DNA of 64,000 nucleotides from Streptomyces celluloflavus (GTDB taxonomy: Bacteria > Actinomycetota > Actinomycetes > Streptomycetales > Streptomycetaceae), in contig JOEL01000005.1 of NCBI GenBank assembly GCA_000720995.1, forward strand, positions 167,299 to 231,298, given 5' to 3'. Numbering within the stretch: position 1 is the stretch's first letter; each line of letters starts with the position of its first letter. The translations under genes were made by a program, and so were the position numbers. Positions 14,805-58,151 of this stretch are shown one piece after another. A model generated the notes under the pieces. That model searched no databases. It saw only the letters and a program-made list of their open reading frames with translations, and was not told where the DNA came from.

Positions 14805-14837
14805 ATGGGCTATCCGTTCCGGTGACAAACGTGGGTT

Positions 14838-25420: not shown

Positions 25421-25481
25421 CGTGTGCGTTCCCTCCCCCTGGTGCCGGTCGGCGGTACGACCGGCCCGTCCAAGACTCCAG

Positions 25482-42027: not shown

Positions 42028-43254
42028 TCAGGAGACCAGGGCGGCCTCCGACCAGACCTGCGACCAGACCTGGTCCAGGGCGTCGACGAATCCGCGAACG
42101 TCGTCGGCGGTGTGCACGGCTCCGGGGGCGACCCGCAGGATCTCCTCGCCGACCCGCACGCTCGGCGCGTTGATCGCCTGCACATAGATCCCGTGCCGGT
42201 CGAGCAGCAGCGCGGACATCCGCTTGCACGCGTCCTCGTCCCGCACCAGGACGGACACGATGTGCGTCTGGTCCGAGATGAAGGGGATGCCGCGCTCGTT
42301 GAGCAGCCGATGCATCAGCTGCGCGTTCGACCACAGCTGGTCCCGCTCGGCCCCGGAGGACCGCAGATGCCGTACCGCGGCCAGGGCGCCGGCGGCCACG
42401 GCGGGCGGCAGCGCGGTGGTGAAGATGAAGGAGCGGGAGAACATGCGCACCGCCTCGATGACCTCGGCGGGGCCGGCAATGTAGCCGCCGGTGGTGCCGA
42501 AGCCCTTGGCCAGGGTGCCCATGACGACGGTGAAGTCGTCGGCGATGCCCTCCCGGGCCGCGATACCGGCGCCCTCCGGGCCGTACATGCCCACCGCGTG
42601 CACCTCGTCGAGGTACGTCATCGCCCCGTAGCGCTTGGCGATATCGGCGATCTCGGGCAGCGGCGCGATATCGCCGTTCATCGAGTACACGGACTCGGTC
42701 ACGATGAGCTTGGGGACGTCCGGGTCGGCCGCCGCCACCAGCTCTTCCAGGTGGGCGAAGTCGTTGTGACGGAAGATCTGCTTCCGGGCGCGGCTGTGGC
42801 GCAGACCGTCGATGACGGACGCGTGGTTGAGGGCATCGGAGAAGACGACACATCCCTCCATGCGGCCGGCGATGACGGACAGCGCACCGTCGTTGGCGGT
42901 GTAGCCGGAGGTGAACAGCAGGGCGTCGTCCTTGCCGTGTAATTCGGCGAGCTCCCGCTCCAGCAGCACGTGGTAGTGGTTGGTGCCACCGATGTTCCGC
43001 GAGCCGCCGGCGCCGGCCCCGTACTTGTCGACCGCCTCCTTCATGGCTTCGAGCACCGCGGGATGCTGACCCATGCCGAGGTAGTCGTTGCTGCACCAGA
43101 CGCTGATGCTGTCCGGCCCGGCCCCGTGCCCGCCGGTGCGCACACTGGCCGCGGGAAAGTTCCCGGCGAGCCGTCCGATCTCAAGGAAATCCCTCTTTCC
43201 CCCGTCGGAATTCTCGATGAGGCGCGCAAAGAGGTCCATATACTGGATCGTCAC
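42028..43254 (-). CDS. 5-Aminolevulinate synthase (C5N pathway type)
   Basis: A 408-residue alpha-oxoamine synthase. Lys250 ([13 protein letters not shown]) binds [20 protein letters not shown] near 215-230, [16 protein letters not shown] and [16 protein letters not shown] are ALAS signatures. It condenses succinyl-CoA and glycine to 5-aminolevulinate. Actinomycetes make haem by the glutamyl-tRNA route, so a dedicated ALAS in a cluster is the classic marker of the aminohydroxycyclopentenone (C5N) unit of the manumycin family (AsuD1-like). The GTG at 43254 is taken as start; ATG 43239 is an alternative. Divergent from the two ligases, sharing the 370-base promoter gap. Confidence 0.93.
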
Positions 43255-43623
43255 GTCTACTCGCTTCGTTCAGGCTTCCTGAGGCCACATGCAAATGCAG
43301 GCGACTGTGAATACGCGACTAACCCGCACACCTGCGGCTGGCTTCTGCTCGCCCCGGAACGAACGCGGCACTGGTGAAATCGCGCGGGGAATCACATGGC
43401 GTCGCCGTCCCCAGTTCAGAGGAAGGGCATGGAAGTAACGTCTGCATATCGTCGATCGCGGTTGACGCCCAACTTACCCAAGGTCAGCAGGTATTGAAGT
43501 CACCAAAGCGTGAACTTTAGTAATTTTCCCAATGATTTGACGGGCACTCGGAACCTGTTGCCAAGCCCTCACGGCCATGTGATCCTGCACCAACCGGCAA
43601 ACCGGCCGCAAAGTGGAGTGCCG
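43255..43623. promoter_or_regulatory. Divergent promoter gap for the C5N genes
   Basis: 369 bases between ALAS (minus) and the first ligase (plus). It is noticeably AT-richer near 43480-43545 (TTTAGTAATTTTCCC region), as expected of promoters. No ARE-like site or obvious palindrome seen; nothing coding. Confidence 0.55.
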
Positions 43624-45198
43624 ATGTCTTCGAACGAGAATTACGCCCGTCGGATCCTTGAGGCGTTGGCGTCCGTTCCCGACCGAATCGCCCTCTGGCG
43701 GGAGGACGAGAAGATCACCGCGGGCCAGCTCTCCCGGGCGGTTCTCACAGCGGCCGACGTCCTGCGCCGGCACTTCACGCAACACCACCGCTCCCCGGGC
43801 ACGGCGGACAAAAACCCGGTGGTGGCGGTGCTGACCGTCACCAACAGCCCGGCGACCATCATCCTGCGCTACGCCGCCAACCTCGCCGGCGCCACCATGG
43901 TCCACCTGCACTCCACGAACGCGGTGGACCCCACCGACCAACTGGCCGCCGCCGCCCGCCAGGAGATCCTCAGCAGGACCGGGGCGACCGTCCTCGCCGT
44001 CGACAAGGAGAACGCCGACACGGCCCGCGAACTGTGCAGCCGGCTGTCCGAACCACCGCGTCTCGCCGCACTCGACGCCCTCGGCCCCGACGTGCTGGAC
44101 CTCTCGGCGGGCAACCCGGACGCCTTCGTCCTCGACGAGACCGAGGCCGACCCCGACCAGCCGGCCGTGGTGCTCTGCACCAGCGGCACCGGCGGCAGCC
44201 CCAAGGCCGTCGCGATGTCCTACCGCGTCCGCAGCCTCCACCTCCAGGTGAACCTGGGCCTCCAGTCCCCGGAACCCCTCGTCTACCTGTCGACCCTGCC
44301 CGTGAGCAACTCCAGCGGCTCCGTCGTCGACGTCACCCTCGCCTCGGGCGGAACGGTCATCCTGCACGACGGATTTGAGGCGGGCGAAGTACTGCGGGCC
44401 GTGGACCGCCACCGCGTCTCCACCCTCGCACTCACCCCGCCGCAGCTGTACATGCTGATCGACCACCCCGACACCGCCACCACCGACCGGTCGAGCATCA
44501 GGACCCTCACCTACGTCGGCTCTCCCGCGGCCCCCGCCCGGCTCGCCGAGGCGGTCGAGGTCTTCGGACCGGTGCTGCTCCAGCTCTACGGGACCACGGA
44601 GGCCAGCCCCATCAGCATCCTGACCCCGCAGGACCACTTCGACCCGGAGCTGCGCCGGACCGTCGGCCGTCCGGCCACGGAGGTACGCATCCGCGACCTG
44701 GACGACGGCCGTGACCTCCCGCCCGGCGAGATCGGCGAGGTCTGCGTACGGAGCCCCTCCACCATGCTCGGCTACTGGGGCGAACCGGAGCTGACTGCCG
44801 AGACCGTCCGCGACGGCTGGGTGCACACCGGCGACCTCGGCTCCCTCGACGAGAAGGGCTTCCTGCGCCTGCACGGCCGCACGGGCGAGGTGATGAAGAC
44901 CAACGGCATCAAGGTCCACCCCACCGACGTGGAGAACGCGCTGCTGACCCACCCGGAGATCGCCCAGGCCGCGGTGTACTGCGTGGTCGACGACGATCGC
45001 GTGGAGCACATCCACGCCGCCGTCGTGGCACGGCCGGGCGGCACCGCCGACCCCGACGCACTGATCGGCCACGTCGCCGCCGAGCTGTCCCCGAAGCACG
45101 TACCGGCCGTGGTGACGTTCCACGACGCGCTGCCCCTCACCGGTACCGGCAAGCCCGACAAACGGGCGCTGGCCGCACGGCGCAGCGGTGCGGCATGA
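43624..45198 (+). CDS. Acyl-CoA/AMP ligase family enzyme (candidate C5N amide synthetase)
   Basis: A 524-residue ANL-superfamily enzyme. The A3 loop is CTSGTGGSPKAVAMS near residue 183, the A5 motif LYGTTEASP near 320, the A7 region GWVHTGDLG near 400, and the catalytic Lys in LTGTGKPDKRAL at the end. A3 is atypical (TGGSPK rather than TGxPKG). In C5N clusters two ANL enzymes follow ALAS, one cyclising 5-aminolevulinyl-CoA and the other forming the amide bond to a carboxylic acid. The more divergent sequence makes this the better candidate for the amide synthetase (AsuD3-like), but the assignment between the two is tentative. Overlaps the next gene by ATGA. Confidence 0.85.
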   Translation: MSSNENYARRILEALASVPDRIALWREDEKITAGQLSRAVLTAADVLRRHFTQHHRSPGTADKNPVVAVLTVTNSPATIILRYAANLAGATMVHLHSTNAVDPTDQLAAAARQEILSRTGATVLAVDKENADTARELCSRLSEPPRLAALDALGPDVLDLSAGNPDAFVLDETEADPDQPAVVLCTSGTGGSPKAVAMSYRVRSLHLQVNLGLQSPEPLVYLSTLPVSNSSGSVVDVTLASGGTVILHDGFEAGEVLRAVDRHRVSTLALTPPQLYMLIDHPDTATTDRSSIRTLTYVGSPAAPARLAEAVEVFGPVLLQLYGTTEASPISILTPQDHFDPELRRTVGRPATEVRIRDLDDGRDLPPGEIGEVCVRSPSTMLGYWGEPELTAETVRDGWVHTGDLGSLDEKGFLRLHGRTGEVMKTNGIKVHPTDVENALLTHPEIAQAAVYCVVDDDRVEHIHAAVVARPGGTADPDALIGHVAAELSPKHVPAVVTFHDALPLTGTGKPDKRALAARRSGAA

Positions 45199-46733
45199 CA
45201 CTGACCGCCGCGTCCGTACTGGCGGAGTCCGCCGAGCGGCGCCCCGACCACCCCGCGCTCGTCCACGGCTCCGAACGGATCACCTACGCCGAACTCTGGC
45301 ACGCCACCCGCCGGTACGCGACGGTGCTGCGGGACCACGATGTGCGCCCCGGCGACCGGATCGCCCTGCTGCTGCCGAACACACCGCACTTCCCGATGGC
45401 GTACTACGGCGTGCTGGCGCTCGGCGCCGTGGCGGTTCCGGTGCACGGCCTGCTGCGCGCCGACGAGATCGTCCACGTGCTGGCCGACTCCCAGGCGAAG
45501 GCCCTGGTATGCGCGGCGCCGATGCTGACCGAGGGGGCCAAGGCGGCCGAGACGGCCGGAGTCCCGCTGCTCACCGTCATGCTGGCGGACGACGACGGCC
45601 CGCCCCGTCTCGACGCGCTCGCCGAACGGGCGGAGCCCCTGGACCGCCTGGTACCGCGCGAGCCCCAGGACCTGGCCCTGGTGCTGTACACCTCGGGCAC
45701 CACCGGCCGGCCCAAAGGCGCGATGATCACCCAGCTCAATCTGGTGATGAACGTCAGCACCACCATGCGCTCGCCCTTCGACCTCGGCCCCGACGACGTG
45801 CTGCTCGGCTGCCTGCCGCTCTTCCACACCTTCGGCCAGACCTGCGGCATGAGCGCCTGCTTCCTGGCCGGCGGCACCCTGGTCCTCATGAACCGCTTCG
45901 ACGGCCCCGGCGCACTCGACCTCATGGTCACCGAGGGCTGCACCGTGTTCATGGGCGTCCCGACCATGTACCTGGCCCTCCTCGAAGCCGCCGGCAACGA
46001 CGACCGCCGCCCCGCCCTCGACCGCGCCTTCTCCGGCGGTTCGGCGCTGCCGGTCAAGGTGCTGAACGACTTCCAGGAGGTCTACGGCTGCCCGATCTAC
46101 GAGGGATACGGCCTCACGGAGACCTCACCGGTGGTGGCGTACAACCAGAAGGCGTGGCCACGCAAACCCGGCACCGTCGGACACACCATCTGGGGCGTGG
46201 AAGCGGAGATCGCCGCCGCCGACATCGAGGACCGCATCGAACTGCTGCCGGCCGGGGAGACCGGGGAGATCGTCATACGCGGCCACAACGTCATGGCCGG
46301 CTACCTCAACCAGCCGGAAGCCACCGCGGCCGCCCTGGTGGACGGCTGGTTCCGCTCGGGCGATCTGGGAACGAAGGACGCCGACGGCTGCCTGACCATC
46401 GTCGACCGCAAAAAGGACATGGTGCTGCGCGGCGGCTACAACGTCTATCCGCGCGAGGTCGAGGACGTACTGATGCACCACCCGGCCATCGCCCAGGTGG
46501 CCGTCATCGGCATCCCCGACGACAAGTACGGCGAAGAGGTGTGCGCCGTGGTACGGACACGGCCGGGCACGGACCTCGCCGCCCTGGCCCCGGACATCGT
46601 GGCCTGGAGCAGACAGCGGCTCGCCGCCCACAAGTACCCGCGCCTGGTGGAATTCGTCGACGACTTCCCCCTCGGACCGAGCGGCAAAATACTGAAGCGG
46701 GAACTCACCGCCCGCCTCACCGCCCGCCGCTGA
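45195..46733 (+). CDS. Acyl-CoA ligase (candidate 5-aminolevulinate:CoA ligase/cyclase)
   Basis: A 512-residue ANL enzyme with a canonical set of motifs: LYTSGTTGRPKGAMITQ near residue 160, EGYGLTETSPV near 305, GWFRSGDLGTKDADG near 395, DRKKDMVLRGGYNVYPREVE near 405 and the C-terminal Lys in LGPSGKILKREL. It looks like medium/long-chain acyl-CoA ligases, the family of the C5N-forming AsuD2-type enzymes that activate 5-aminolevulinate as its CoA ester, which then cyclises. Coupled to the previous ligase by ATGA. The three genes ALAS plus two ligases make the complete known C5N set. Confidence 0.88.
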   Translation: MTLTAASVLAESAERRPDHPALVHGSERITYAELWHATRRYATVLRDHDVRPGDRIALLLPNTPHFPMAYYGVLALGAVAVPVHGLLRADEIVHVLADSQAKALVCAAPMLTEGAKAAETAGVPLLTVMLADDDGPPRLDALAERAEPLDRLVPREPQDLALVLYTSGTTGRPKGAMITQLNLVMNVSTTMRSPFDLGPDDVLLGCLPLFHTFGQTCGMSACFLAGGTLVLMNRFDGPGALDLMVTEGCTVFMGVPTMYLALLEAAGNDDRRPALDRAFSGGSALPVKVLNDFQEVYGCPIYEGYGLTETSPVVAYNQKAWPRKPGTVGHTIWGVEAEIAAADIEDRIELLPAGETGEIVIRGHNVMAGYLNQPEATAAALVDGWFRSGDLGTKDADGCLTIVDRKKDMVLRGGYNVYPREVEDVLMHHPAIAQVAVIGIPDDKYGEEVCAVVRTRPGTDLAALAPDIVAWSRQRLAAHKYPRLVEFVDDFPLGPSGKILKRELTARLTARR

Positions 46734-46869
46734 CCCGGCGCACGCCCCTACGACCGGGCACGGGCGCCCTCCCCGGCCCGGACCCGGAAGCAGGTCCGAC
46801 CGCTCCGCCGAAGCACCGCGCGCCCGCGACGGCGACACCACCCACCTGGCCGAGAAGCACGACGGCCAC

Positions 46870-46891
46870 GGCTCCGGGAACGCACGGAGCC
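46870..46891. terminator. Hairpin between convergent ligase and pabAB genes
   Basis: GGCTCCG pairs with CGGAGCC across an 8-base loop, placed between the ligase stop (46733) and the pabAB stop (46913). Modest stem; plausible terminator only. Confidence 0.45.
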
Positions 46892-46912
46892 ACACCGACA
46901 CCTGCGAAACCG

Positions 46913-48991
46913 TCACGCCTCCTTCGGCAGCGCGCGCAGAGTCGTCTGCGCCTTGAGGAGCATCTCCTCGTACTCGGCCTCCGGATCGGAACCGAGGACG
47001 ATGGCACCCCCCGCGCCGATGGTCAGTTCACCGCCGTGACGGACAGCGGTGCGGATGGTGATGCTCAGATCCGCCGTGCCCGTATAGCCGACGAACCCGA
47101 TGGCACCGGAGTAGACACCACGGGCCTCACCCTCCAACTCGTCGATGATCTCCATGGTGCGCAGCTTCGGCGCCCCCGTCATGGACCCGCCGGGGAAACA
47201 GGCCCGGACCGCGTCCACGGCGGAACTGCCCTCGCGCAAAGTGCCGGTGACGGTGGAGACGAGCTGGTGCACGGTGGCATAGGACTCCACCGCCATCAGC
47301 GAGGGAACGGTGACGGTGCCGATCTCGCATATCTGCCCGAGGTCGTTGCGGAGCAGGTCCACGATCATCAGGTTCTCGGCACGCGACTTGGGATCCGTAC
47401 GCAGGGCGCGGCGCGTGGCCTCGTCGGTGTCCGGATCCGGGTGCCGGGGCGCCGTGCCCTTGATCGGCTTCGCCTCCACCGTGCGGGTGGCGTCCACCTT
47501 GAGGAACCGCTCGGGCGACGAGCTGAACACCGCGAGATCGCCCAGCCGCAGCAGCGCCGCGTAGGGCGCGGGGTTGAGCCGCCGCAGGCGCCGGTAGTAG
47601 GCGAGGTCGTCAGCCGGCGCGGGCAGATGCAGATTGGTGGTGAGGCAGATCTCGTAGCTCACCCCCTCGCGCAGCCTGCGGTCGCACTCCCGGATGTCCG
47701 CCAGATACTGCGCGCGCGGGCGGGCCAGCCACGCCGCGGCATCGTGCTGCTCGGCGAGCGGCGGGGCGGTGGCATCCGCGTGCGCGGCGGGGAGTTCGGC
47801 CAGGACGGGGACGACCGTCCTGATCCACTTCTGCGCGGCGTCGGCGTCCCGCTGCTCGCAGACGGCGACGACATACGTACGGTCCTCGGCGTGATCCACG
47901 GCGATGAAGCGGTCGGCCTGCAGCCACACGGCGTCCGGCGCCTTCGACGGGTGGGCGCGCCGGGCACCGAGGTCGGCCTTCAGCTCGTAGCCGAAATAGC
48001 CGACGTAACCGCCGGTGAAGTCGAAGGGCAGCTCCCCGGCGCCCTCGACCACGCGGCCGGTACGGCGGTCGAGCGCGTCGAAGACGCTGCCGTCCTCCCG
48101 GCGCGAGGTGCCGTCGGGGTGGTCCACGACGGTGTGCCCGTCCTCGACGCGGTAGGCCAGCATCTCCGCGCCCGGCTCATCGGCGGCTCCGAAGAACGAG
48201 AAGCGGGCCAGACCGGGTTCCACATGCGAACTGTCGAGCCAGAAGGCCCGGGTGCTCGTCCCGTACAGCGCCAGGTACGCGGCCTCCGCGTCCACGGCCC
48301 GGTCCAGGACGTCGTACTCCGCGCGCAGCCGCGGCCCTGACGCCTCCGGCGCCGCGACCGGTACGGGCCCGGCGCCGGCCCGGCCCGCGTACGGACCCGT
48401 GCCGCTGCCGCGGCCCGCCGGCGCCAGGTCCCGGAAGTTGGCCACGAGACGGGCGCCATGCTCCGTGCATATCGACTCCGGGTGGAACTGCACGCCCCAC
48501 CAGGGCCGTTCGCGATGGGCCAGGCCCATGATCACGCCGTCCTCGGCGCGCGCGGTGACCTCCAGATGCGCGGGCACGGGTTCGGCGACGCTCAGGGAGT
48601 GGTAGCGCACGGCGGTGAAATCCTGCGGGATACCGGCGAAGAGACCCGTACCGCTGTGCCGGATCGTGGACAGGTAGCCGTGCCGGGGCTCCGGCGCGGG
48701 CACGACCTGCGCGCCCGCCAGCAGACCCACACCCTGGTGCCCCAGGCACACCCCCAGGACCGGCAGCCCGGAGTTCTCCAGAACGTCGCGGGAGCGGCCG
48801 AAGTCGCGGGGGAGCGCCGGATGGCCGGGGCCCGGGGAGATGACCGCCGCGTCGAAGCCGTGCGGATCGAACCGGTCCCAGTCCTCGACGTCGTTGCGTA
48901 CGACGACGGGAGCGACGCCGAGCACCTTCGCCAGCAACTGATGCAGGTTGTAGGTGTAGGAGTCGTAGTTGTCGACGAGCAGGACGCGCAT
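46913..48991 (-). CDS. pabAB: Aminodeoxychorismate synthase, PabA-PabB fusion
   Basis: A 692-residue fused enzyme. Residues 1-200 are the glutamine amidotransferase (LLVDNYDSYTYNLHQLL, nucleophile Cys82 in VLGVCLGHQGVG, HPESICTEHG). The rest is the chorismate-binding PabB domain with KPIKGTAPRH, LMIVDLLRNDLGQ, PGGSMTGAPK and GAIGFVGY. It makes 4-amino-4-deoxychorismate, the p-aminobenzoate (PABA) precursor. The fused form is typical of secondary metabolism (candicidin, chloramphenicol, benzastatin). A PABA lyase gene (PabC) is not present here and would be supplied by the genome. Ends the N-oxygenase/NAT/prenyltransferase operon. Confidence 0.94.
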   Translation of the reverse strand: MRVLLVDNYDSYTYNLHQLLAKVLGVAPVVVRNDVEDWDRFDPHGFDAAVISPGPGHPALPRDFGRSRDVLENSGLPVLGVCLGHQGVGLLAGAQVVPAPEPRHGYLSTIRHSGTGLFAGIPQDFTAVRYHSLSVAEPVPAHLEVTARAEDGVIMGLAHRERPWWGVQFHPESICTEHGARLVANFRDLAPAGRGSGTGPYAGRAGAGPVPVAAPEASGPRLRAEYDVLDRAVDAEAAYLALYGTSTRAFWLDSSHVEPGLARFSFFGAADEPGAEMLAYRVEDGHTVVDHPDGTSRREDGSVFDALDRRTGRVVEGAGELPFDFTGGYVGYFGYELKADLGARRAHPSKAPDAVWLQADRFIAVDHAEDRTYVVAVCEQRDADAAQKWIRTVVPVLAELPAAHADATAPPLAEQHDAAAWLARPRAQYLADIRECDRRLREGVSYEICLTTNLHLPAPADDLAYYRRLRRLNPAPYAALLRLGDLAVFSSSPERFLKVDATRTVEAKPIKGTAPRHPDPDTDEATRRALRTDPKSRAENLMIVDLLRNDLGQICEIGTVTVPSLMAVESYATVHQLVSTVTGTLREGSSAVDAVRACFPGGSMTGAPKLRTMEIIDELEGEARGVYSGAIGFVGYTGTADLSITIRTAVRHGGELTIGAGGAIVLGSDPEAEYEEMLLKAQTTLRALPKEA

Positions 48992-49018
48992 GGGTCAGCA
49001 CCTTGGGTGGGGTAGTGG

Positions 49019-50041
49019 TCAGGAGGTTCGGGACGACACCGTTGACCAGTCGAAGGGGAGGGTGTCCAGGACGTCCAGCTCCTGGCAGAGCTGCCGCAAC
49101 CCGCTGAAGTCCTGGAGGAGCCGCTTACCGCCGGAGGCGCCGCCGACATCCCGCAGCATCTCCTCGCCCCCCTCCACGCCGAGCAGGTCCAGGATCCTCG
49201 CCCAGGTCGTGAAGTCGTGCGTGGCGAAGGCTTCCATCCCGTCGGCCAGCGCAGCGAGGAAGTAGTCGCGCTGCCCGGCGGAGAAGTGCTGCCACGCCTC
49301 CTGGGCGAGGGTGTCCGCGATCGAGGCGTGGCAGTACTCGTCACGCTGGTGCAGGACCGCCGTCATACGGTTCACCGGCTGGATCCCGTGGTTCTCGGCG
49401 ACGAGGTCCAGGTGGGCGTTGACCGAGATCTCCGCGACCGTGGTGAACGCGAGCGAGACCAGGGCCCGCTCCTCGTCCGTCCCGGCCGTGGCGAGCCGGT
49501 GCGCCTGCCTGCGCGCCTTGTACGCCAAGGGCAGCGCCGACTCCGGCATCCGCCAGCCGCGCTTGCGGCGCGTCACGGCACTGGCGTTGAGGTGCATCAG
49601 CGTGTGGTACTGCTCGTCGACCATGGCCTGGGTGACCGCGATCGTCATGGCCTCGCTGTCGATACCCGTGTCGAAGACGTCCTGCGTGACCAGGGCGAAA
49701 CCCGGGTTCACCACATACTGCTCGATGTCCATGATGTTCTTGTTGAACGAGATCCAGCCCCAGGCGAGAACGCGCGCCTTCATCGCGTCGTCGAGCGCGA
49801 GATAGGTGGGGTGCTCGCGGAACGGCAGCAGGCTCTCGGGGAAGTCCGGCCGGTCCAGCTCGAAGAGGTCGTCCAGGTTCGGCTCCTCCTGCTTGACCGT
49901 GGCACGCCGGTGCCAGTTGCCGGCGAGCCTGCTCAGGACGGCGTTCTCCACCGCATCGTGCGGATCGTGCTCCGGAGACGACCGCAGCCGCCGCGCCACG
50001 GTGAACGCACCGGGATCAGCTTCGTTGGGTATGTCATTCAT
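49019..50041 (-). CDS. AurF-type diiron arylamine N-oxygenase
   Basis: A 340-residue ferritin-like protein with all seven diiron ligands of AurF recognisable: E107 (IMDIEQYVV), E143 and H146 (VDEQYHTLMH), E204 (TTVAEISVNAH), H231, E235 and H238 (LHQRDEYCHAS). Spacing matches AurF E101/E136/H139/E196/H223/E227/H230 within 6-8 residues. It oxidises the amino group of PABA-type substrates to hydroxylamine, nitroso or nitro. In benzastatin-like pathways the hydroxylamine is the level needed, being then O-acetylated. GAGG precedes the ATG. Lies between pabAB and a small gene. Confidence 0.93.
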   Translation of the reverse strand: MNDIPNEADPGAFTVARRLRSSPEHDPHDAVENAVLSRLAGNWHRRATVKQEEPNLDDLFELDRPDFPESLLPFREHPTYLALDDAMKARVLAWGWISFNKNIMDIEQYVVNPGFALVTQDVFDTGIDSEAMTIAVTQAMVDEQYHTLMHLNASAVTRRKRGWRMPESALPLAYKARRQAHRLATAGTDEERALVSLAFTTVAEISVNAHLDLVAENHGIQPVNRMTAVLHQRDEYCHASIADTLAQEAWQHFSAGQRDYFLAALADGMEAFATHDFTTWARILDLLGVEGGEEMLRDVGGASGGKRLLQDFSGLRQLCQELDVLDTLPFDWSTVSSRTS

Positions 50042-50058
50042 GGCGACCTCGGTCCAGG

Positions 50059-50313
50059 TCAGAGCCGCCCGGCGCGCCTGGCGCCGGCCTTGGGCCTGCG
50101 GAATTCGATTTCCACGCCGAGCCCGCGGTGCGGCGGCACCACACCGGCCCGGGTCTCGGCGAGGGCGTTCTCGATGGACAGGTGCCGCACCGCCGGCCGG
50201 GCGCGCCGAAGACTCAGCCGGCGGTCGAAGGGCAAGCGGGGGCGGCACGGACGGAAGCGGCCAAAAAGCGCGAAGTCCGCGGAACAGCGGCTGTCCGGCA
50301 GCGAAGTACGCAT
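50059..50313 (-). CDS. Small basic protein, 84 aa, between NAT and N-oxygenase genes
   Basis: Its ATG at 50313 overlaps the stop of the NAT gene as TGATG, and its stop lies 17 bases before the N-oxygenase start. It is Arg-rich with a short hydrophobic patch and has no recognisable domain; C-terminal LGVEIEFRRPKAG is the least biased part. Coupling argues for real translation, but a compositional open frame cannot be excluded. Function unknown. Confidence 0.4.
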   Translation of the reverse strand: MRTSLPDSRCSADFALFGRFRPCRPRLPFDRRLSLRRARPAVRHLSIENALAETRAGVVPPHRGLGVEIEFRRPKAGARRAGRL

Positions 50314-51143
50314 CACGGACCGTCCAGGAATTTCCGGAGCGCCTGGACATCGCCCGGTTCCAAGGTGATCCCGAAGATCTCCTCGGGAGCGGAAAGCAAC
50401 TCGTCCTTGTCGAGTTCCCGGAAGGCCGCCGCCCTCCCGGGACGCAGCTCCGCCAGAGTGCTGCCGGCGAGGAGATGCCTCACCTCGGGCCGGGTGCGCT
50501 GCAGGACCATCCGATGGTTGAACGGCGAGCGCGGATGCGTGAGGCAGAAGTGGTTGAGGATCTCGAAATCCGAGGGATGGCGCACGTCCAAGGTGAAGCC
50601 GTAGAGCTCGGCCGGCCCCTCCGGCCCCAGGAACCGCAGGACATGTTCACCGGACGGCTCCCGTACGAGATCGAACGACCAGTCGCCGTCCAGCCGCGCG
50701 CTCTCCGCGAGCCGGATCGGCTCGTGCAGCCCGTGGGCACCGAAACTCACGTCGTAAAGCCAGCGTTCACCATCGAGCTCCACACACAGAGCCACGTGCA
50801 GCGCCGGCCCCACCTTGTTCCCGGTCCGGATCCGCGTCCGGCCCGCGAACGCCGTGAACGTGAACCCGATACGGTCGAGCACGGCCGCCGCCAGCACGAC
50901 CTGCTCCAGACACCAGCCGCCGCGGCCCTGCCGCACGATCTTGTCCTGAACACTGTCCAGGTCGAGCGGTACCACCGTGCGGCCGAACAGCGCGTCCAGG
51001 TTGTCGAAGGCGATCGCGTCGACATGGGCGGCGTGCAGACCGCGCAGCGTGGAGAGATCCGCGGCCACATCACCCCGGTAACCCACCCGGGCCAGATAGG
51101 CGTCCAGATCGACGCCGCCGCCCTGCCACACCGAATCCGTCAT
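50313..51143 (-). CDS. Arylamine/N-hydroxyarylamine acetyltransferase family enzyme
   Basis: A 276-residue NAT-fold enzyme with Cys78 (RQGRGGWCLEQ), His116 (GPALHVALCV) and Asp131 (WLYDVSFG), so the triad is intact though the helix after the Cys (CLEQ instead of CFELN) is divergent. NAT enzymes can O-acetylate N-hydroxyarylamines. That is exactly the activation required to make the leaving group for nitrene-like P450 cyclisation in benzastatin biosynthesis. ATG 51143 follows GGGTGAG; the earlier ATG 51161 overlaps the prenyltransferase stop as ATGA. Low similarity to the other NAT (5080-5877) suggests different substrates. Confidence 0.88.
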   Translation of the reverse strand: MTDSVWQGGGVDLDAYLARVGYRGDVAADLSTLRGLHAAHVDAIAFDNLDALFGRTVVPLDLDSVQDKIVRQGRGGWCLEQVVLAAAVLDRIGFTFTAFAGRTRIRTGNKVGPALHVALCVELDGERWLYDVSFGAHGLHEPIRLAESARLDGDWSFDLVREPSGEHVLRFLGPEGPAELYGFTLDVRHPSDFEILNHFCLTHPRSPFNHRMVLQRTRPEVRHLLAGSTLAELRPGRAAAFRELDKDELLSAPEEIFGITLEPGDVQALRKFLDGP

Positions 51144-51157
51144 ACGCCGCTCACCCT

Positions 51158-52054
51158 TCATGTGAACTGCCCGGCGACCATGCCCGCGAGAACGAGCCAG
51201 CCGAAATAGGTGTTGGAGACGAAGGCGTCCCAGCACGATTTCGGGTCGTTCAGGTCCACACGCACCAGCAGAGAGGACAGATAGATTCCCGCGAGCGCGA
51301 CAACCAGGTAGAACGCCCACCCCATCGACACCAGCGCACCCGCCCACAGCACGCCCCCGACACTGATCGCGGCGAAGAGCGCCAGCCACGCCTTGGTGGC
51401 CTTGCCGAACAGCAGAGCAGAAGACTTGACCCCGATCTGACGGTCGTACTCCTTGTCCTGATGGGAGTAGATCGTGTCGTGAATCACGGTCCAGAAGGCC
51501 CCACCGGCATACAGGCCGCACACCGCGAGCGGATAGCCGGCGCTCCCGGTCGCCGCCGTCCAGCCGATCAGCGCGTAGACGCTCATCACCAGCGCCAGGA
51601 ACGCCGAGGGCCAGAAGAAAATGCGCTTCATATACGGGTACGCGACGATCAGCGGATACGAGGCCGCAGCGACCAAGGCCGTCTCCACGTTCACCACCGC
51701 CAGGACCAGCAGCGCGACCACGGCCTGTGCGACCGCGAACAGCAGCGCGTTCTTGACGCTGACCGTCCCCGAGGCGACAGGACGCGACACGGTGCGGGCG
51801 ACCCGGGCGTCGACGTCCCTGTCGATCACGTCGTTGACCGCGCAGGCAGCGCCGCGCACCAGCACCGCAGCGACGGCGAGGAGCACCACCACCAGCGGGT
51901 CCGGCCGCCGCCCGGAGGACAGGGCGACGGCCCACAGCCCCGGAAGCAGGTAGAGCACGTACCCCGTGGGCCTGTCCAGTCGCATCAACAACAGATACGC
52001 GCGGACCGAAGCGGGGCTCTTCGTGACCACGCCGGCAGATATTTCGTGCAGCAT
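51158..52054 (-). CDS. UbiA-family aromatic prenyltransferase (PABA geranyltransferase candidate)
   Basis: A 298-residue membrane protein with about nine transmembrane helices and both Asp-rich Mg-diphosphate motifs: NDVIDRDVD near residue 74 and DTIYSHQDKEYD near 192. Second-motif sequence groups it with 4-hydroxybenzoate-type prenyltransferases (UbiA) rather than chlorophyll or haem enzymes. Context with PABA synthesis, an N-oxygenase and a GPP C6-methyltransferase-like gene predicts C-prenylation of PABA by (methyl)geranyl diphosphate. Coupled to the NAT gene. Acts in the cytoplasmic membrane. Confidence 0.92.
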   Translation of the reverse strand: MLHEISAGVVTKSPASVRAYLLLMRLDRPTGYVLYLLPGLWAVALSSGRRPDPLVVVLLAVAAVLVRGAACAVNDVIDRDVDARVARTVSRPVASGTVSVKNALLFAVAQAVVALLVLAVVNVETALVAAASYPLIVAYPYMKRIFFWPSAFLALVMSVYALIGWTAATGSAGYPLAVCGLYAGGAFWTVIHDTIYSHQDKEYDRQIGVKSSALLFGKATKAWLALFAAISVGGVLWAGALVSMGWAFYLVVALAGIYLSSLLVRVDLNDPKSCWDAFVSNTYFGWLVLAGMVAGQFT

Positions 52055-52064
52055 CAGGACCCCA

Positions 52065-53237
52065 TCACCATGTCACCGGAAGCTGGACCAACCCGCCGAT
52101 CAGCGTGGTGAGGCGCAGCCTCAGCTCGTCCACACCGACAGCCAGACGCAGGGTCGGGAATCGCGCGACGAGCTGGGTGAGCACCACCTGCAGCTGCATC
52201 CGGGCCAGCGTCGCGCCGACGCAGTGGTACGCACCGTGCCCGAACGCGAGACTGCCCGTCGCATCGCGAGTGACATCGATGCGGTCGGGGCCGGCGAAGA
52301 CCGTCTCGTCGTGGTTGGCCGCGATGATGTTCAGCAACACGAAGTCGCCGGCCCGGATGGTGACCCCGTCGATCTCGAAGTCCGTCAGCGCGTAACGGGG
52401 CATGCCGCCATTGTGCGGATTCGGCATCGACATCCGCAGGGTCTCCTCGACCGCACCGGGGATGAGCCCCGGGTCGCGCAGCAACGCCTGCCACTGCTCG
52501 GGATTGGCCAGCAACAGCGACACACAGGTGCCGATCCGGGCCACCGTGGTCTCATAACCACCGAACAACAACAGCGCCGTCAGCCCGATGACCTCGTTGT
52601 CCTTGATCCCCTCGGTCGCACAGATCCTGGAGATCGCATCATCGCCCGGGTTCCGCCGCTTGTCAGCGACAAGCTGCCCGCAATAGGCGAACAACTCGGC
52701 CAGCCCCCGCTTGGACCTGACCGGGTCTCCGACGCCGGCGGCGTCCTGGGTCCAGCCGCCGAACCGGTCCTTGTCCTCCTGCGGCACACCCAGCCACTCG
52801 CACATCACCTGGATCGGCAACGACAGCGCCAGCGCCTCGCGCAGATCCACCGGAGGCGTCCGGCCGGCCACCGTGTCCAGGAGCTGCCGGGACACCTCTT
52901 CCACGTAGGGCCGCAGCGCCAGCATCCGCTCGGGGGAGAAGTGCGGCTCCAACAGCGCCCGCAACCGGGCGTGGTCGGTGGCGAAGTCGCCCAGCAGGCC
53001 GGCGAGAATCGCGGAACCGCTGTCCTTCGCCGCGGCCTGCGGATCAGGATTCGAGCGGCTGAGCCGGTCGTCGTCGAGCAACCGCCGCACCCAGGCATGA
53101 CCGGTGACAAGCCACGCCTCGTCGCCCTCGGCGGTACGGACCCGATGGACCGCGCCCTGGGACTGGAGCGTGCGCAGTGCCGGTGCGAGGTGCAGCACAT
53201 TCGTCTGCTCGAAAGGCAGTTGAGTCGGGGTACTCAC
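52065..53237 (-). CDS. Cytochrome P450 (candidate benzastatin-type cyclase)
   Basis: A 390-residue soluble bacterial P450. The haem Cys lies in LAFGHGAYHCVGATLAR near residue 340, the ExxR pair in VEETLRMSMP near 278, and the I-helix reads LLLFGGYETTV, with GGYET in place of the usual AGxET. Its place directly in the small-gene/P450/prenyltransferase/NAT/N-oxygenase/pabAB operon makes it the best candidate for the cyclase that turns the O-acetylated hydroxylamine into an indoline or tetrahydroquinoline (BezE role). The GTG start overlaps the preceding small gene (GTGA) with GAGG 6 bases upstream. Confidence 0.93.
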   Translation of the reverse strand: MSTPTQLPFEQTNVLHLAPALRTLQSQGAVHRVRTAEGDEAWLVTGHAWVRRLLDDDRLSRSNPDPQAAAKDSGSAILAGLLGDFATDHARLRALLEPHFSPERMLALRPYVEEVSRQLLDTVAGRTPPVDLREALALSLPIQVMCEWLGVPQEDKDRFGGWTQDAAGVGDPVRSKRGLAELFAYCGQLVADKRRNPGDDAISRICATEGIKDNEVIGLTALLLFGGYETTVARIGTCVSLLLANPEQWQALLRDPGLIPGAVEETLRMSMPNPHNGGMPRYALTDFEIDGVTIRAGDFVLLNIIAANHDETVFAGPDRIDVTRDATGSLAFGHGAYHCVGATLARMQLQVVLTQLVARFPTLRLAVGVDELRLRLTTLIGGLVQLPVTW

Positions 53238-53464
53238 TGACGGCCTCCGCCGGAATCGAGGTTCGGACCACCGTGTCGAAGACGGTCGCGACGTACTGGG
53301 GACGGAAAGCCGCCCAGCGGCAGGTTGACCGGGTTCCGGGTCAGGGGCACGCAGCGGGCCCGCTCCCAGCGCTCGAACTCGCCGCGGATGACGGGTAATT
53401 CCGTGGCCGTCTTCGGCGACATGAAGGCGCGGGGCCCGGCCGACGAGGTGCCGAGTGCGCTCAT
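53234..53464 (-). CDS. Small protein, 76 aa, first gene of the PABA operon
   Basis: A 76-residue protein starting at ATG 53464, 9 bases after GGAGGAG, and ending with a GTGA overlap into the P450. The middle (TELPVIRGEFERWERARCV) is helix-like and followed by PLTRNPVNLPLGGFPSPV. No Cys pair, no membrane segment and no known domain. The strong ribosome site and coupling show it is real. It may be an electron-transfer or stability partner of the P450, or a small structural protein. Confidence 0.72.
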   Translation of the reverse strand: MSALGTSSAGPRAFMSPKTATELPVIRGEFERWERARCVPLTRNPVNLPLGGFPSPVRRDRLRHGGPNLDSGGGRQ

Positions 53465-53591
53465 AGGGCTTCTCCTCCGGTCACGACGCCTTCCCTGTTA
53501 CCGGTCAGAAGCTACGCGCATGGGGTTCGCGAATTGCACCACAGGAAATCACTGTGTGGCATTACCGGAATTTTTGCGATCATTCTGGCTG

Positions 53592-53876
53592 CCATCCTGG
53601 TGGGCAGCCCTGAGCGTGTCAACGATGCGGCGTGCGCATCTTCCGGTTTAGGGAAAACCCCAAAGAGGACGGCACAGGGCCGGATTTGGGCTACGCTGCG
53701 GATTGGTGGCCGCTGGGCGGCACCCAAGGTCGTGCTTCGAGTCCGGCTGTCGAGCCGGCGTCCAACGGCGGATAACACTTTCCGAGAAGGACGCGGTTTC
53801 CACCGACTGGCGTGGACGCTCTGTTCGGCGACGCAAGCCAGACGTTCCGGCGCGGACGCCGTGGCACGGAACGGAG
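53592..53876. repeat. Imperfect direct repeat, left copy (285 bp)
   Basis: 285 bases match 57867-58151 in the same orientation without net gaps, at roughly 85-90% identity by eye; weaker similarity extends perhaps 40 bases further left. Frames are open through both copies, but differences change amino acids freely, so it is not a conserved protein. It includes a GGTTT-AGGGA-AAACC dyad at 53645-53659. The region 53465-53979 holds this repeat and the promoter of the plus-strand P450, no gene. Confidence 0.8.
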
Positions 53877-53979
53877 TGAAACGAGTAGCGGTGAGCGGTT
53901 CTGCCGGCCGAGCAATATCACACAACGTCACTGATTATTGCCGAGAACGGCTCACGATAGCTTGAGAGGTGGAATGGCC

Positions 53980-55224
53980 ATGTCTGTTGATTCCGGGCAA
54001 TTGCAGGAGGACAGGTCGTTCGATCCATATGGCGCGCATCGCGACGACCCGTATTCCTTTCTGACCGGCATCGGAGAGAAAGAACCCGTTTTCTACGCCC
54101 CTTTGCTCGACGCCTGGTGCGTCACCCGCCGCGAGGACATCATTGCCGTACTGCGCGACGACCAGAGCTTCTCGGCGCGCGACCACAATCCCCGCCCCTC
54201 GGTCGCGCTGCCCGAGGACGTGACACGCATGCTGCGCACCTGGCGCGGAGCCGATGCGCTGGCCGTCGGCTCGCTCGACCCGCCCGAGCACACCAGGATC
54301 AAGGAAGTGCTCAACGTCGGGTTCACACCGGCCAGGGTCAGAGCATTCGAACCCACGATCCGCACGATCGCCACCGACCTCGTCGAGCGGGTGGCGGTCG
54401 CGGAGGAGTTCGACTTCATCAAGGAGTTCGCGGTTCCGTACTCCCTCGAGGTGATCGGCCGACGCCTCGGGATTCCGGACGAGTACCTCGACCGCTGCCG
54501 CACATGGTCCGAGCAACGCATCGAACTCATGATGGTGCGAGGCCACACCGATTTCGACCGGCTGCGTGAATACGCCCGCGGCCTGATGGAGTTCGGAGCA
54601 TTCGCCCGGTCACTCGTGCAGGAACGGCTGGCCTCACCGCAGGACGACCTGATCAGCGAACTGCTCCACGAGGGCAAGGCCGGCCGCACGCTCACCGCCG
54701 ACGAGGCTTCCGTCATGATCCCCACACTGATCTTCGCGGGACACATGACCTGCGCCGAGGCGCTCGGCACCATCCTCTTCCAGCAGTTCCAGGCCCCCGG
54801 AGGCTGGACCGCGGTGGCCGACGGGACGATCGCCACACGGGACCTCGTCGAAGAGGGGCTGCGGTTCGACAGCCCGCTGGCGGGCATGTACCGGACCGCG
54901 GTCAGCGACGTAGTGGTCGGCGACGTCCCCCTGGCCGCGGGAAGCCGACTGCTTCTGCTGTACGGAGCGGCCGGCCGGGACAGCAACTCCTCCGCATGTC
55001 CGGCCGCGTTCAGGCCAGGCAGCGGGTCCGCCTCGCATCTCGCGTTCGGGCACGGCATCCACTTCTGCCTCGGAGCCGGATTCGCCCGCTCGGAACTGGA
55101 GATCGCGATACAGGCCCTCGCCACCAGGATGCCGGGTCTGACACTGGCACCGGGGCCGCTGCCGCATCACCGGCCGGTGTTCCCGCTCCGGGCATTGACC
55201 GAGTTGCGGGTGCGGCAGCGGTGA
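53980..55224 (+). CDS. Cytochrome P450 (second, hydroxylase-type)
   Basis: A 414-residue P450. Haem loop LAFGHGIHFCLGAGFARSE near residue 360, ExxR in VEEGLRFDSPL near 298, I-helix LIFAGHMTCAEALG near 255, where the usual Glu of AGHE is Met. N-terminal DPYGAHRDDPYSFL is typical of CYP107-like enzymes. ATG 53980 has GAGGTGGA at good spacing; ATG 53974 is an alternative. It is outside the coupled operon and inside the repeat-bracketed segment; a likely role is terminal oxidation of the prenyl chain before O-methylation (as in virantmycin side chains), which is inference. Confidence 0.92.
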   Translation: MSVDSGQLQEDRSFDPYGAHRDDPYSFLTGIGEKEPVFYAPLLDAWCVTRREDIIAVLRDDQSFSARDHNPRPSVALPEDVTRMLRTWRGADALAVGSLDPPEHTRIKEVLNVGFTPARVRAFEPTIRTIATDLVERVAVAEEFDFIKEFAVPYSLEVIGRRLGIPDEYLDRCRTWSEQRIELMMVRGHTDFDRLREYARGLMEFGAFARSLVQERLASPQDDLISELLHEGKAGRTLTADEASVMIPTLIFAGHMTCAEALGTILFQQFQAPGGWTAVADGTIATRDLVEEGLRFDSPLAGMYRTAVSDVVVGDVPLAAGSRLLLLYGAAGRDSNSSACPAAFRPGSGSASHLAFGHGIHFCLGAGFARSELEIAIQALATRMPGLTLAPGPLPHHRPVFPLRALTELRVRQR

Positions 55225-55458
55225 CACGGAGACCAGGTCGTTTCTGACGGCCCGTGTACGGTGCCGTCCGCGCTTGTCCCGCTGCTCGTTCCGCTCGGCG
55301 ATGGCCGCCTTGCTGCCGCGGCGCCGCAGGCGGGCACGGTTGTCGCGGCCGGAGCGAACCGTGCCGCCGTGCAGGCGGCACGGCCGGCCCGGACCCCGCC
55401 GTCGAACGTGCGGGCCTGCCGGGGCCGGCAGGGGGCCCGGAACAGCACGCCGTCTCAC

Positions 55459-55502
55459 CACGTTGGGGTGGTGTACCCGCGCGGGTACACCACCCCAACG
55501 TG
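55459..55502. terminator. 44-base perfect palindrome between convergent genes
   Basis: Two 22-base arms with no spacer (centre ACCCGC/GCGGGT) lie between the plus-strand P450 and the minus-strand methyltransferase. Such a loop-free perfect palindrome can terminate both transcripts and might also form a cruciform. The rest of 55225-55673 appears non-coding. Confidence 0.75.
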
Positions 55503-55673
55503 CTGGAGACGGGCGAAGCTCGCGGCGCCGGCCGCTCTCCCGCGCGCACGGAGCAGGCCGGGTGCGGCAGAACCGGGAGCCTCGCTCGTCGTGCTTCGCT
55601 TCCCGCACAGGTGGGCTTCTCCGAGCCGGCCGAGCGGCGGCCGGCTGAAGATGCCCGGGAACGGCGCTCGAGG

Positions 55674-56504
55674 TCAGGCGCGGACCGCGGTCAGGAAGAG
55701 ATAGCCGCTCTCCGGGACGGACCCGAACTCGCGCATGAAGTGGAGGAGTGAGGCGGCCTGTTCCTCGCCGACCAGTTCGGCCAGCTTGTCGCGGACGGTC
55801 TCCACGGCGTCGGCCATCAGCCCAAGAGTGCGGATGACGTTGTCGGTGATGTCGGTGATCTCCACGTCGACGAAACCGTTGTCGGCCAGCGCCTTGCGGT
55901 ACTCGTCCACAGTGCCCAAGGAGCGCACCCCGTAGTGCTCGACGACATGGTCCAGGACCACGCGTCCCTCAGGAGTGATCGGGTCGCGCTGGATGACGTC
56001 GGCGATGGCGAGGCGGCCCCCGGGGCGCAGGACACGGGCGGCCTCGGAGATCACCTGGCCCCGGTCGGGCATGTGCCACATCGACTCGAACGCCCAGGCC
56101 GCGTCGAACGAGCCGTCGGGGAAGGGCATGTCCATCGCGTCCCCGAACTGGAACGTGGCCCGGTCGGCGAGCCCGGCCTCGGCCGCGAGCTTGGTGGCAT
56201 CCGCCACCTGGATCCGGCTGACGGTGATGCCCACCACGTCCACGTCGGAAGTGCGGACGAGCCGCTGTGCGGGGTAGCCGATGCCGCAGCCGATGTCCAG
56301 GACCCGCTGGCCGGGCTGCGCGGCGAGACCCGAGATCATCAGGTCGGTCAGGCGGTCCGTGGCCTCTTCGACGGAGCTGTCGTCGGCGTCGTTCTCCCAG
56401 TAGCCGTAGTGGATGTTGGGGCCCCACGCGGAACCGTAGATCCGGCCGAACCCGTCATACACGTTGAGGACATCGCTGTGAGCGGGAGACTGATCGAGCG
56501 TCAT
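55674..56504 (-). CDS. SAM-dependent methyltransferase (UbiE/EryG-like, candidate O-methyltransferase)
   Basis: A 276-residue class I methyltransferase. Motif I is VLDIGCGIGYPAQRL near residue 70; FPDGSFDAAWAFESMWHM near 130 and RVLRPGGRLAIADVI near 160 are the post-motifs. N-terminal NVYDGFGRIYGSAWGPNIHYG is typical of the sugar/polyketide O-methyltransferase group related to EryG and RebM. It could methylate a hydroxyl generated by the neighbouring P450. ATG 56504 follows ACGGAG. Convergent with the P450, separated by the 44-base palindrome. Specific acceptor unknown. Confidence 0.9.
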   Translation of the reverse strand: MTLDQSPAHSDVLNVYDGFGRIYGSAWGPNIHYGYWENDADDSSVEEATDRLTDLMISGLAAQPGQRVLDIGCGIGYPAQRLVRTSDVDVVGITVSRIQVADATKLAAEAGLADRATFQFGDAMDMPFPDGSFDAAWAFESMWHMPDRGQVISEAARVLRPGGRLAIADVIQRDPITPEGRVVLDHVVEHYGVRSLGTVDEYRKALADNGFVDVEITDITDNVIRTLGLMADAVETVRDKLAELVGEEQAASLLHFMREFGSVPESGYLFLTAVRA

Positions 56505-56693
56505 GAAAAACTCCGTATCGTTGTGAAGGCGGCGGAAAGCCGCGACTCGCAGCCCTACCGGCCGGCGAAAACCCTGGTCGACCGCGATGGAACTCGGCGG
56601 TTACCTCGAAGGCGGGCGGAAACCCGCTGCGCTGGGCTGGGCAACCCCAGCCCAGCGCCTGCCTGATTTTCCGCGTCTCTGCCCGCCCCTTGC

Positions 56694-57605
56694 TTACTTC
56701 AGCTCGAAGCGCAAGAAACCCAGCCGCGCGCCCCCGGCCTGCCACTCGGCGCCAAGTGCCCGGTTCGCCAGCAGAGATATCCTCAGCTGCCTGCGATCAA
56801 CCGGCGAGAGACCGCTGTCGCTGTCCAGTACCGCCTCCGTCCAGGCGACACTCTCCTCCCAGAACGGTGCGGTCGCCGCCGTGGCGTCGACGTCATCGAC
56901 CAATTCGAAACCCGCGGCCTCTGCGGCCTTCACGTAGTCGAGCACCGTGGCAGGTTTCGTGTAAAAGTACTCGGCCCACACATCGGCCCCGTGCGGGCGC
57001 GTGATGAATAGTTCTTCGATGCACACACTCGCGCCCGGACGAAGCACGCGTGCCAGCCGCTCGAACCACAGCGGACGGTCGAAATATCCGCTGCTCTCGA
57101 TCGCTACCGCTGCGTCGTAGGGGCCGCTGTCCAGGGGCAGTTGCTTCGCATCGCTGACCAGTGCGCGAACCCTCCCGCCCACGCCGCATTCCCGCGCGAA
57201 CCCCTCGACCACCGGCGCGTGCTCCGGCGCGTTGGTGACCGCCGTGACGTCGGCGCCGTACTCCTCCGCCCAGAAGAGCGAGCCCCCGCCGAGACCGCAG
57301 CCGACATCCAGGACCCTGCCCGACAGCCGCTGCTCGGCGTCCCAGATCTTGGCCGCATACCGCAGCAGATCCTCTTGATGACGCCGTATGCTGCCGCGAA
57401 TATCGTTCGGTGTCACATCGTCAGCACGCGGCGGCGCTTCGAAGGAAGGGTAATAACCTACGTGATAGTGAATCCTGGGACCAGGCCCGTACTTGCGGAC
57501 AAGTTTGGCTGTCTTGTCGTCGTAGTACTGACCGACTATTTTCACCTCATCCTGAGGGTCCAGCGCTGCTTGAGGTGAACTTGAAAGCTCATCCAGATTC
57601 GACAC
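56694..57605 (-). CDS. Geranyl-diphosphate C6-methyltransferase-like enzyme (BezA-like)
   Basis: A 303-residue SAM methyltransferase with motif I VLDVGCGLGGGSLFWAEEYG near residue 100 and a terpene-methyltransferase-like N-terminus (GQYYDDKTAKLVRKYGPGP). By direct count Glu170 (VAIESSGYF) and Trp210 (GADVWAEYF) fall at the positions I recall as the catalytic base and the substrate-pocket residue of BezA, which methylates GPP at C6 in benzastatin biosynthesis. This numbering is from memory and must be checked. If right, the prenyl donor is 6-methyl-GPP. The GTG start has GGAGGAG 7 bases upstream. Not coupled to its neighbours. Confidence 0.85.
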   Translation of the reverse strand: MSNLDELSSSPQAALDPQDEVKIVGQYYDDKTAKLVRKYGPGPRIHYHVGYYPSFEAPPRADDVTPNDIRGSIRRHQEDLLRYAAKIWDAEQRLSGRVLDVGCGLGGGSLFWAEEYGADVTAVTNAPEHAPVVEGFARECGVGGRVRALVSDAKQLPLDSGPYDAAVAIESSGYFDRPLWFERLARVLRPGASVCIEELFITRPHGADVWAEYFYTKPATVLDYVKAAEAAGFELVDDVDATAATAPFWEESVAWTEAVLDSDSGLSPVDRRQLRISLLANRALGAEWQAGGARLGFLRFELK

Positions 57606-57866: not shown

Positions 57867-58151
57867 CCATCCTGAAGGGCTGCTCTGGGCGTGTCAACGA
57901 TGCGGCATGCGCCTTCTCCGGTTTAGGGAAAACCCCAAAGAGGGCGGTGCAGGAGCGGATTTGGACTACCCTCTGGATTGGTAGCCGCTGGACGGCACCC
58001 AAGGTCGTGCTTCAAGTCCGGCTGTTAAGCCGGCATCCAACGGCGGATAAGACTCCCCGAGAAGGACGCGGTTTCCACCGACCGGTATGGACGCCCTGTC
58101 CGGCGACGCGAGCCAGACGTTCCGGCGCGGACGCCGTGGCGCGGAACGGAG
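57867..58151. repeat. Imperfect direct repeat, right copy (285 bp)
   Basis: Partner of 53592-53876 at a constant offset of 4275 bases. It lies upstream of the minus-strand methyltransferase at 56694-57605. Together the copies bracket exactly P450, both methyltransferases and the palindrome. The surrounding 57606-58655 region has no well-supported gene. Confidence 0.8.

Follow-up and report, generated by a model that had tools for sequence, protein, structure and literature searches.

The window analysed here, a stretch of 64,000 nucleotides from Streptomyces celluloflavus, lies at the right-hand end of a 231,298-base contig (source genome 8.68 Mb in 193 contigs) and has a G+C content of 70.8%. 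Its positions 42028-57605 carry genes for the C5N unit, 2-amino-3-hydroxycyclopent-2-enone, next to a set of the benzastatin/virantmycin (bez) type, and the question treated here is whether the two sets form one pathway. All the genes named in this region by a first-pass annotation made from the sequence alone are present, each with an uninterrupted frame. From left to right the order is cALAS(−), AMS(+), ALL(+), ADC synthase(−), AurF(−), NAT(−), UbiA(−), P450a(−), P450b(+), MT1(−), MT2(−) and a LuxR-type regulator(−). These genes and two associated repeats are as follows (G numbers denote genomes of the genus sample described below):

42028-43254 (−): cyclizing 5-aminolevulinate synthase (cALAS); TIGR01821, cyclizing-type markers; 89% to the 5-aminolevulinate synthase (ALAS) of G671 and of G515
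43510-45198 (+): amide synthetase (AMS), an ANL ligase; assigned by triad position and similarity; start possibly near 43624
45195-46733 (+): 5-aminolevulinate (ALA)-CoA ligase (ALL), an ANL ligase; AMP-binding 333.5 bits; 90, 88 and 83% to ALL of the G671, G515 and G467 triads
46913-48991 (−): fused aminodeoxychorismate (ADC) synthase, glutamine amidotransferase (GATase) plus chorismate-binding; Pfam; 89% in S. olivaceus
49019-50041 (−): AurF-type di-iron N-oxygenase (role as in BezJ); PF11583 174.2 bits; longest open reading frame (ORF) reaches 50350
50313-51143 (−): arylamine N-acetyltransferase (NAT) family enzyme (BezG position and role); PF00797 176.1 bits; lies between UbiA and the p-aminobenzoic acid (PABA) module in bez loci
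51158-52054 (−): UbiA prenyltransferase (BezF position); PF01040 193.2 bits; 82-83% in four other bez loci, 84-86% in S. olivaceus and F-5630
52065-53237 (−): P450a, proposed BezE orthologue (nitrenoid cyclization); PF00067; adjoins UbiA and NAT in the bez loci compared
53592-53876 (+): 285-bp inverted repeat, copy 1, upstream of P450b; copies 88% identical
53938-55224 (+): P450b (BezC position), proposed side-chain hydroxylase; PF00067; 82-88% in six other bez loci; start likely a few codons downstream
55674-56504 (−): methyltransferase MT1 (BezB position), MitM-like; PDB MitM 211.8 bits, best match 3bus 230.9 bits
56694-57605 (−): methyltransferase MT2, BezA orthologue, geranyl diphosphate (GPP) C6-methyltransferase; 84.5% to BezA (PDB 7fbh) over 303/303 residues; W210 kept
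57867-58151 (−): 285-bp inverted repeat, copy 2, upstream of bezA/MT2; copies 88% identical
58656-59303 (−): LuxR-type regulator; PF00196 38.8 bits; true start probably inside the ORF; nucleotide match in S. olivaceus and F-5630

Assignment of the C5N and bez genes

The cALAS scored 535.8 bits against the NCBIfam 5-aminolevulinate synthase model TIGR01821 (cut-off 338.55). Four markers are given for cyclizing synthases (T83S, I149L, T365S and D231T; PMC4525017, in part) and, read against PDB 2bwn, three of them are present as S85 (T83S), L151 (I149L) and S365 (T365S); the fourth misfits the 2bwn numbering, in which residue 231 is E (A in the window cALAS), yet D240 of 2bwn is T in the window protein. 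The same letters stand at all five positions in each of the 16 fully readable ALASs from other C5N loci that were fetched (a 17th is a fragment). The two AMP ligases correspond to the AMS and ALL of triads elsewhere, which together with the TIGR01821 match and the cyclizing markers bears out the earlier claim of a complete C5N set. The likening of this set to the manumycin type did not hold. Manumycin and asukamycin sets have the same three enzyme functions but run head-to-tail (ams-hemA-all), whereas in the window hemA is divergent from ams-all, a head-to-head order that is tied to moenomycin and bafilomycin producers (PMC4525017, in part). The window AMS is 55-57% identical to those of head-to-head triads neighboured by polyketide synthase (PKS) genes, as against 41-45% to other types (about 42-45% to AMSs of head-to-tail loci). 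Gene order and sequence both place the window set among the head-to-head triads of the bafilomycin/moenomycin type. The possibility that the source genome holds a second C5N locus was considered and rejected: the candidates, a 39% ALAS homologue and a 44% AMS homologue on contig C3, adjoin a tdh-like gene (making the former Kbl by position), and this ALAS homologue lacks the cyclizing markers. The first-pass annotation had asked whether cALAS and the ligases have their closest homologues outside C5N clusters; these lie in other C5N triads.

On the bez side, BezF is the UbiA enzyme and BezJ the AurF-type enzyme. The seven di-iron ligands of AurF are all kept in the alignment of the window protein to 3chh (E107, E143, H146, E204, H231, E235 and H238), as the annotation had said, and Pfam likewise agreed with it on NAT, UbiA, the two P450s and the GATase and chorismate-binding parts of the fused ADC synthase. 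The methyltransferase that it called BezA-like turned out closer than that: on sequence MT2 is BezA (identity as listed above; the next best PDB chain scored 195 bits). Of the characterized proteins, BezA is a GPP C6-methyltransferase (PMC10881772, in part), BezG a NAT acting on p-hydroxyaminobenzoic acid (PMC11213898, in part) and BezE a nitrenoid P450 (PMC11843346, in part). Thus N-oxygenase, NAT, UbiA and a cyclizing-type P450 occur together in the window, as judged by Pfam and by synteny with other bez loci, their activities being predicted. P450a is the sole window-type P450 beside UbiA and NAT in S. ureilyticus and S. lanatus. MT1 is proposed as the O-methyltransferase for the methoxymethyl group. 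The I helix of P450b reads AGHMTC, without the usual acidic residue before the threonine, and this is kept in all seven orthologues compared.

In G671, G429, G660 and G308 the genes run MT2, MT1, P450b, polyprenyl synthase, P450a, UbiA, NAT, ADC synthase, PabC (present in three of these genomes) and AurF. Lettered in this order, BezA, BezE, BezF, BezG and BezJ occupy positions A, E, F, G and J; the remaining letters used for the window would follow from position. The comparison with the bez cluster of Streptomyces sp. RI18 (BGC0001529), which used the BezA sequence, the enzyme roles and the order in these other bez loci rather than the RI18 cluster sequence, gives the window a shared BezA orthologue, shared P450, UbiA, NAT and AurF roles and the order A-B-C-(D)-E-F-G (letters other than A, E and G placed provisionally, by position). 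It differs from that type in lacking the prenyl synthase and PabC, in having an AurF and ADC synthase of the S. ureilyticus/S. lanatus kind and in the adjoining C5N triad. S. olivaceus NRRL B-3009 and Streptomyces sp. NRRL F-5630 share with the window this variant of the bez core, with the same kind of AurF-ADC synthase pair and no prenyl synthase. The prenyl synthase expected between P450b and P450a was not found in the window, nor was one seen in S. olivaceus, and because the window has none of its own, GPP must be supplied from elsewhere. A weak 37-residue match to it (E=0.016) at 53363-53467(−), just upstream of P450a, may be a trace of a lost gene. The PabC (ADC lyase) of S. olivaceus as query gave no match in the window; three class-IV aminotransferases lie elsewhere in the source genome, any of which might serve as ADC lyase.

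Further details concern the same genes. The AurF start near 50041 and the NAT start near 51143 are more likely than those of the longest ORFs; on the AurF side the block of homology with S. olivaceus ends at 50106. A piece of 51 codons between NAT and AurF (50143-50295) resembles NAT residues 185-235 (45%) and is possibly left over from a duplication of NAT. In its bez cluster (loci L229/L230), G671 has an ADC synthase 55-57% and an AurF 34% identical to the window's. The module for N-oxidation of PABA appears to be exchangeable between bez clusters. S. ureilyticus and S. lanatus (L214/L215 and L112/L245) represent a third bez-like type with a LytB-type gene of the methylerythritol phosphate (MEP) pathway, a 3-deoxy-D-arabino-heptulosonate 7-phosphate (DAHP) synthase and a methyltransferase with only some 29-30% identity to BezA.

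Relatives of the amide synthetase and distribution of the two gene sets

In a genus sample of 392 genomes, searched for ALAS at E<=1e-120 and for UbiA at E<=1e-60, ALAS matches were found in 33 genomes and UbiA matches in eight, seven of which have the bez core; in the eighth (G536, UbiA 52%) no bez neighbours are present and it was rejected as a bez locus. Outside the window, G671 has the best ALAS (89%) and AMS (81%) of this sample, and also a bez core. The other AMSs above 57% identity are a relic in S. ureilyticus (G688, 81%) and those of G515 (76%), G467 (70%) and G525 (70%), the next being at 57% (three candidates per genome were scored in this ranking, and weaker pieces may be missed). 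Both of the top two genomes are bez-positive, while a UbiA match over 34% is absent from G515, G467 and G525. The chance that the top two AMSs both fall in the six bez-positive among the 391 other genomes is 2.0e-4, a post hoc figure.

The relic of S. ureilyticus YC419 consists of AMS residues 404-562 (85%, with an in-frame stop) and ALL residues 1-25 and 61-82, and its genome has no cALAS above 38%. A class-II DAHP synthase follows the relic within about 50 bp and shows 86.6% identity across 404 residues with an enzyme encoded between LytB and PabC in the bez region of S. lanatus; the relic therefore adjoins a bez-region gene, set off from the rest of the bez region by some 4.3 kb and an IS110-type transposase. 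In a DNA tree of the 477 AMS columns shared with the relic, the window, G671 and the relic form one clade (98/98), with G515 outside it (90/93) and the other macrolide-type sequences further out; the alternative of a clade of window, G671 and G515 without the relic was rejected (p-AU 0.0012). The tree of full-length AMS proteins, which did not include the relic, joined window and G671 at 93/99. These two differ from G515, G467 and G525 by 19 fixed differences, all 19 before residue 420, in the acyl-activating part (control groupings gave 3 and 4); against all six macrolide-type AMSs two fixed differences remain.

The outer, macrolide-type triads are of the kind known from bafilomycin. A scan of triad flanks that took in G467, G466 and G361 (G515, G525 and G521 were left out) found PKS modules adjoining each. 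In bafilomycin B1 tailoring, fumarate is adenylated by Orf3 and passed on to bafilomycin A1 by Orf2, after which BafY couples C5N to the free acid of bafilomycin C1 (PMC7827423, in part); BafCII (321 aa) and BafCI (360 aa) are listed side by side in PMC3679948 (in part). Beside the G515 triad the NCBIfam and PDB comparison found a 327-aa FabD-like transferase (46.9 bits, below the NCBIfam cut-off) and a 355-aa EhpF-like adenylating protein (167.7 bits), for neither of which Pfam gave a family at E<=1e-5. They are taken to be the counterparts of BafCII and BafCI, the EhpF-like protein being equated with BafCI/Orf3 by size, neighbour and similarity to EhpF rather than by direct comparison. The EhpF-like protein recurs in all five other macrolide-type triad genomes tested (G467 88%, G525 86%, G521 67%, G466 64% and G361 63%). 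With the G515 protein as query, no match was found in the source genome at E<=1e-30 and the best in G671 was only 35%, so the bez-linked triads would have parted from the fumarate step. The window thus resembles the bafilomycin system (BafX/BafY/BafZ, Orf2/Orf3) in its head-to-head triad and in an AMS nested with that group; unlike it, the window has no modular PKS beside the triad and its genome gave no Orf3-type gene in the search just described. By eye, no PKS-like frame stood out in the stretch inspected beside the G671 triad, for which no profile scan was run.

Searches were also made from the AurF side. Of 121 AurF relatives found in genome contigs 80 were kept, and among these four loci have the bez core, that of S. 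ureilyticus YC419 being one, and no cALAS match lies within the flanks of the 80. Two loci with AurF and an AMS-like ligase (L032/L033, 34-36%) were rejected as C5N triads as no cALAS match is found there. In a family sample AurF matched in 31 of 394 genomes, and NAT with UbiA occurred, among 30 short (4 kb) loci, in those of the window and of S. olivaceus only.

Proposed pathway and alternative readings

The region 42028-57605 is very probably one combined pathway for a C5N-capped virantmycin or benzastatin, and most likely the gene cluster for an already known kind of molecule. The first-pass annotation had predicted a prenylated indoline or tetrahydroquinoline joined to C5N, and the prediction agrees with the title of the report by Kimura et al. 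on virantmycins B and C of Streptomyces sp. AM-2504, which describes tetrahydroquinoline and indoline compounds with hydroxy cyclopentenone (cited in PMC6753276, PMC9866866 and PMC10421486, each in part). Its further statement, that it was aware of no such compound in print, is contradicted by the same report. The comparison with virantmycins B and C is one with that title rather than with structures or the AM-2504 genome, and from its wording we infer that their C5N is joined as an amide. No gene cluster for these compounds was found in the open-access literature, most subscription papers lying outside that search, nor did any open-access paper searched name both benzastatin and C5N terms. 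Dynaplanin was dropped as a possible relative, being a compound of arginine, phenylalanine and octanoate.

In the proposed scheme PABA would come from the ADC synthase together with an ADC lyase encoded at another place in the genome. BezA would methylate GPP to 6-methyl-GPP, as printed for its relative, and UbiA would prenylate the PABA unit. Again by analogy with published relatives, AurF would N-hydroxylate and NAT O-acetylate the nitrogen, whereupon P450a (BezE) would expel acetate to form an iron nitrenoid and an aziridine, to be opened by water or chloride to an indoline or tetrahydroquinoline. Virantmycin has an amide derivative in benzastatin C, and opening of the aziridine by chloride or hydroxide (PMC9866866) makes a halogenase unnecessary. 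P450b may then hydroxylate a side-chain methyl and MT1 methylate the hydroxyl. From glycine and succinyl-CoA cALAS would form ALA and, with ALL, close the ring to C5N, as described for related enzymes. Finally AMS would adenylate the finished aryl carboxylic acid and couple C5N to it as an amide, as BafY acts last on bafilomycin C1, the acceptor here being an aryl acid, and the strain would presumably produce the compound. What the present analysis itself contributes to this scheme is the genes, the BezA orthology, the marker residues and a history that the AMS shares with bez loci. The best reading is of a C5N module that was captured from a pathway of the macrolide type and caps an aryl acid of the virantmycin type here.

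Several results weigh against a single pathway. S. olivaceus NRRL B-3009 and Streptomyces sp. NRRL F-5630 have the same bez core (84-93% per protein, about 83-90% per DNA block) without C5N, and no ALAS above 39% is found in their genomes, so adjacency was ruled out as proof by itself. The block of homology with both stops at 46915, the stop codon of ADC synthase, where S. olivaceus has PabC, and the C5N side therefore looks added to a bez block. The 285-bp repeat links the promoters of P450b and bezA (it is partly conserved in S. olivaceus and F-5630) and was not found in the divergent C5N promoter; a shared promoter as a link between the sets was accordingly rejected. Nine bez-positive genomes were examined: S. 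olivaceus, F-5630 and seven from the genus sample. A window-type triad is intact in only two of them; one carries the relic, five carry none, and the C5N set of S. lanatus is unrelated and located on a different contig. In G671 triad and bez core are on different contigs, general co-occurrence of C5N and bez is not significant (2/32 C5N-positive genomes versus 4/359 others, p=0.079), and no product is known for the source strain.

The bez core without C5N and the end of the homology block fit two independent neighbours, with the bez genes making ordinary virantmycin or benzastatin acids and the triad serving another acid, such as a polyketide made elsewhere in the genome; many modular PKS genes are present (46 ketosynthase matches), and supply of C5N in trans has been described for moenomycin, whose cluster 2 acts in this way (PMC4525017, in part). 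We nevertheless regard this as unlikely, since the AMS clade follows the bez-positive genomes, down to the relic in the bez region of S. ureilyticus, the source genome has no match to the EhpF-like partner and compounds of the combined kind exist. The first-pass annotation itself had not established that the two sets belong together. Slightly less probable still is an early coupling, in which AMS would join C5N to PABA or prenylated PABA and the later enzymes work on the amide: the first acid of the pathway is already an aryl carboxylate and the genes do not reveal the order of steps, but BafY of the parental AMS group works last, on a finished acid (PMC7827423, in part), and the bez enzymes work without C5N in related strains. 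Descent of the window AMS from the bafilomycin-type group might also mean that the triad still makes a fumaryl-C5N unit (flavensomycinate-like), to be linked afterwards to a hydroxyl group of the bez product; this we consider very improbable, given that the source genome has no match to the EhpF-like gene at E<=1e-30 and that, in the scan of window ORFs, no acyltransferase gene was found next to the triad.

As to how the combined cluster arose, it is likely that a bez lineage captured the C5N module once from a bafilomycin-type macrolide pathway, that AMS exchanged a macrolide half-ester for a bicyclic aryl acid as its acceptor, and that the module was later lost or moved in sister strains, so that related strains would alternate between the free acid and its C5N amide. 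In that case the window would hold the first described cluster for C5N-capped virantmycins, with a traceable capture of a module, although the class of compound is itself known. It offers a concrete gene set for biosynthesis of the virantmycin B/C type and, if the reading is true, extends the C5N amide synthetases to the bicyclic aryl acid of a meroterpenoid. The bez-type and macrolide-type AMSs, with their 19 fixed N-terminal differences, form a natural pair for studying acceptor choice.

Other features of the window

No RNA families or tRNAs were found in the window. To the left of the cluster, a DDE transposase and an APH-family phosphotransferase lie at 24194-25498 and 33946-34872. Positions 1090-17768 look like a separate secondary-metabolite cluster with a MocA oxidoreductase, two FAD monooxygenases, a second NAT (5080-5952), an acyl-CoA dehydrogenase and asparagine-synthase-like, pyridoxal phosphate (PLP) beta-family and TauD proteins.

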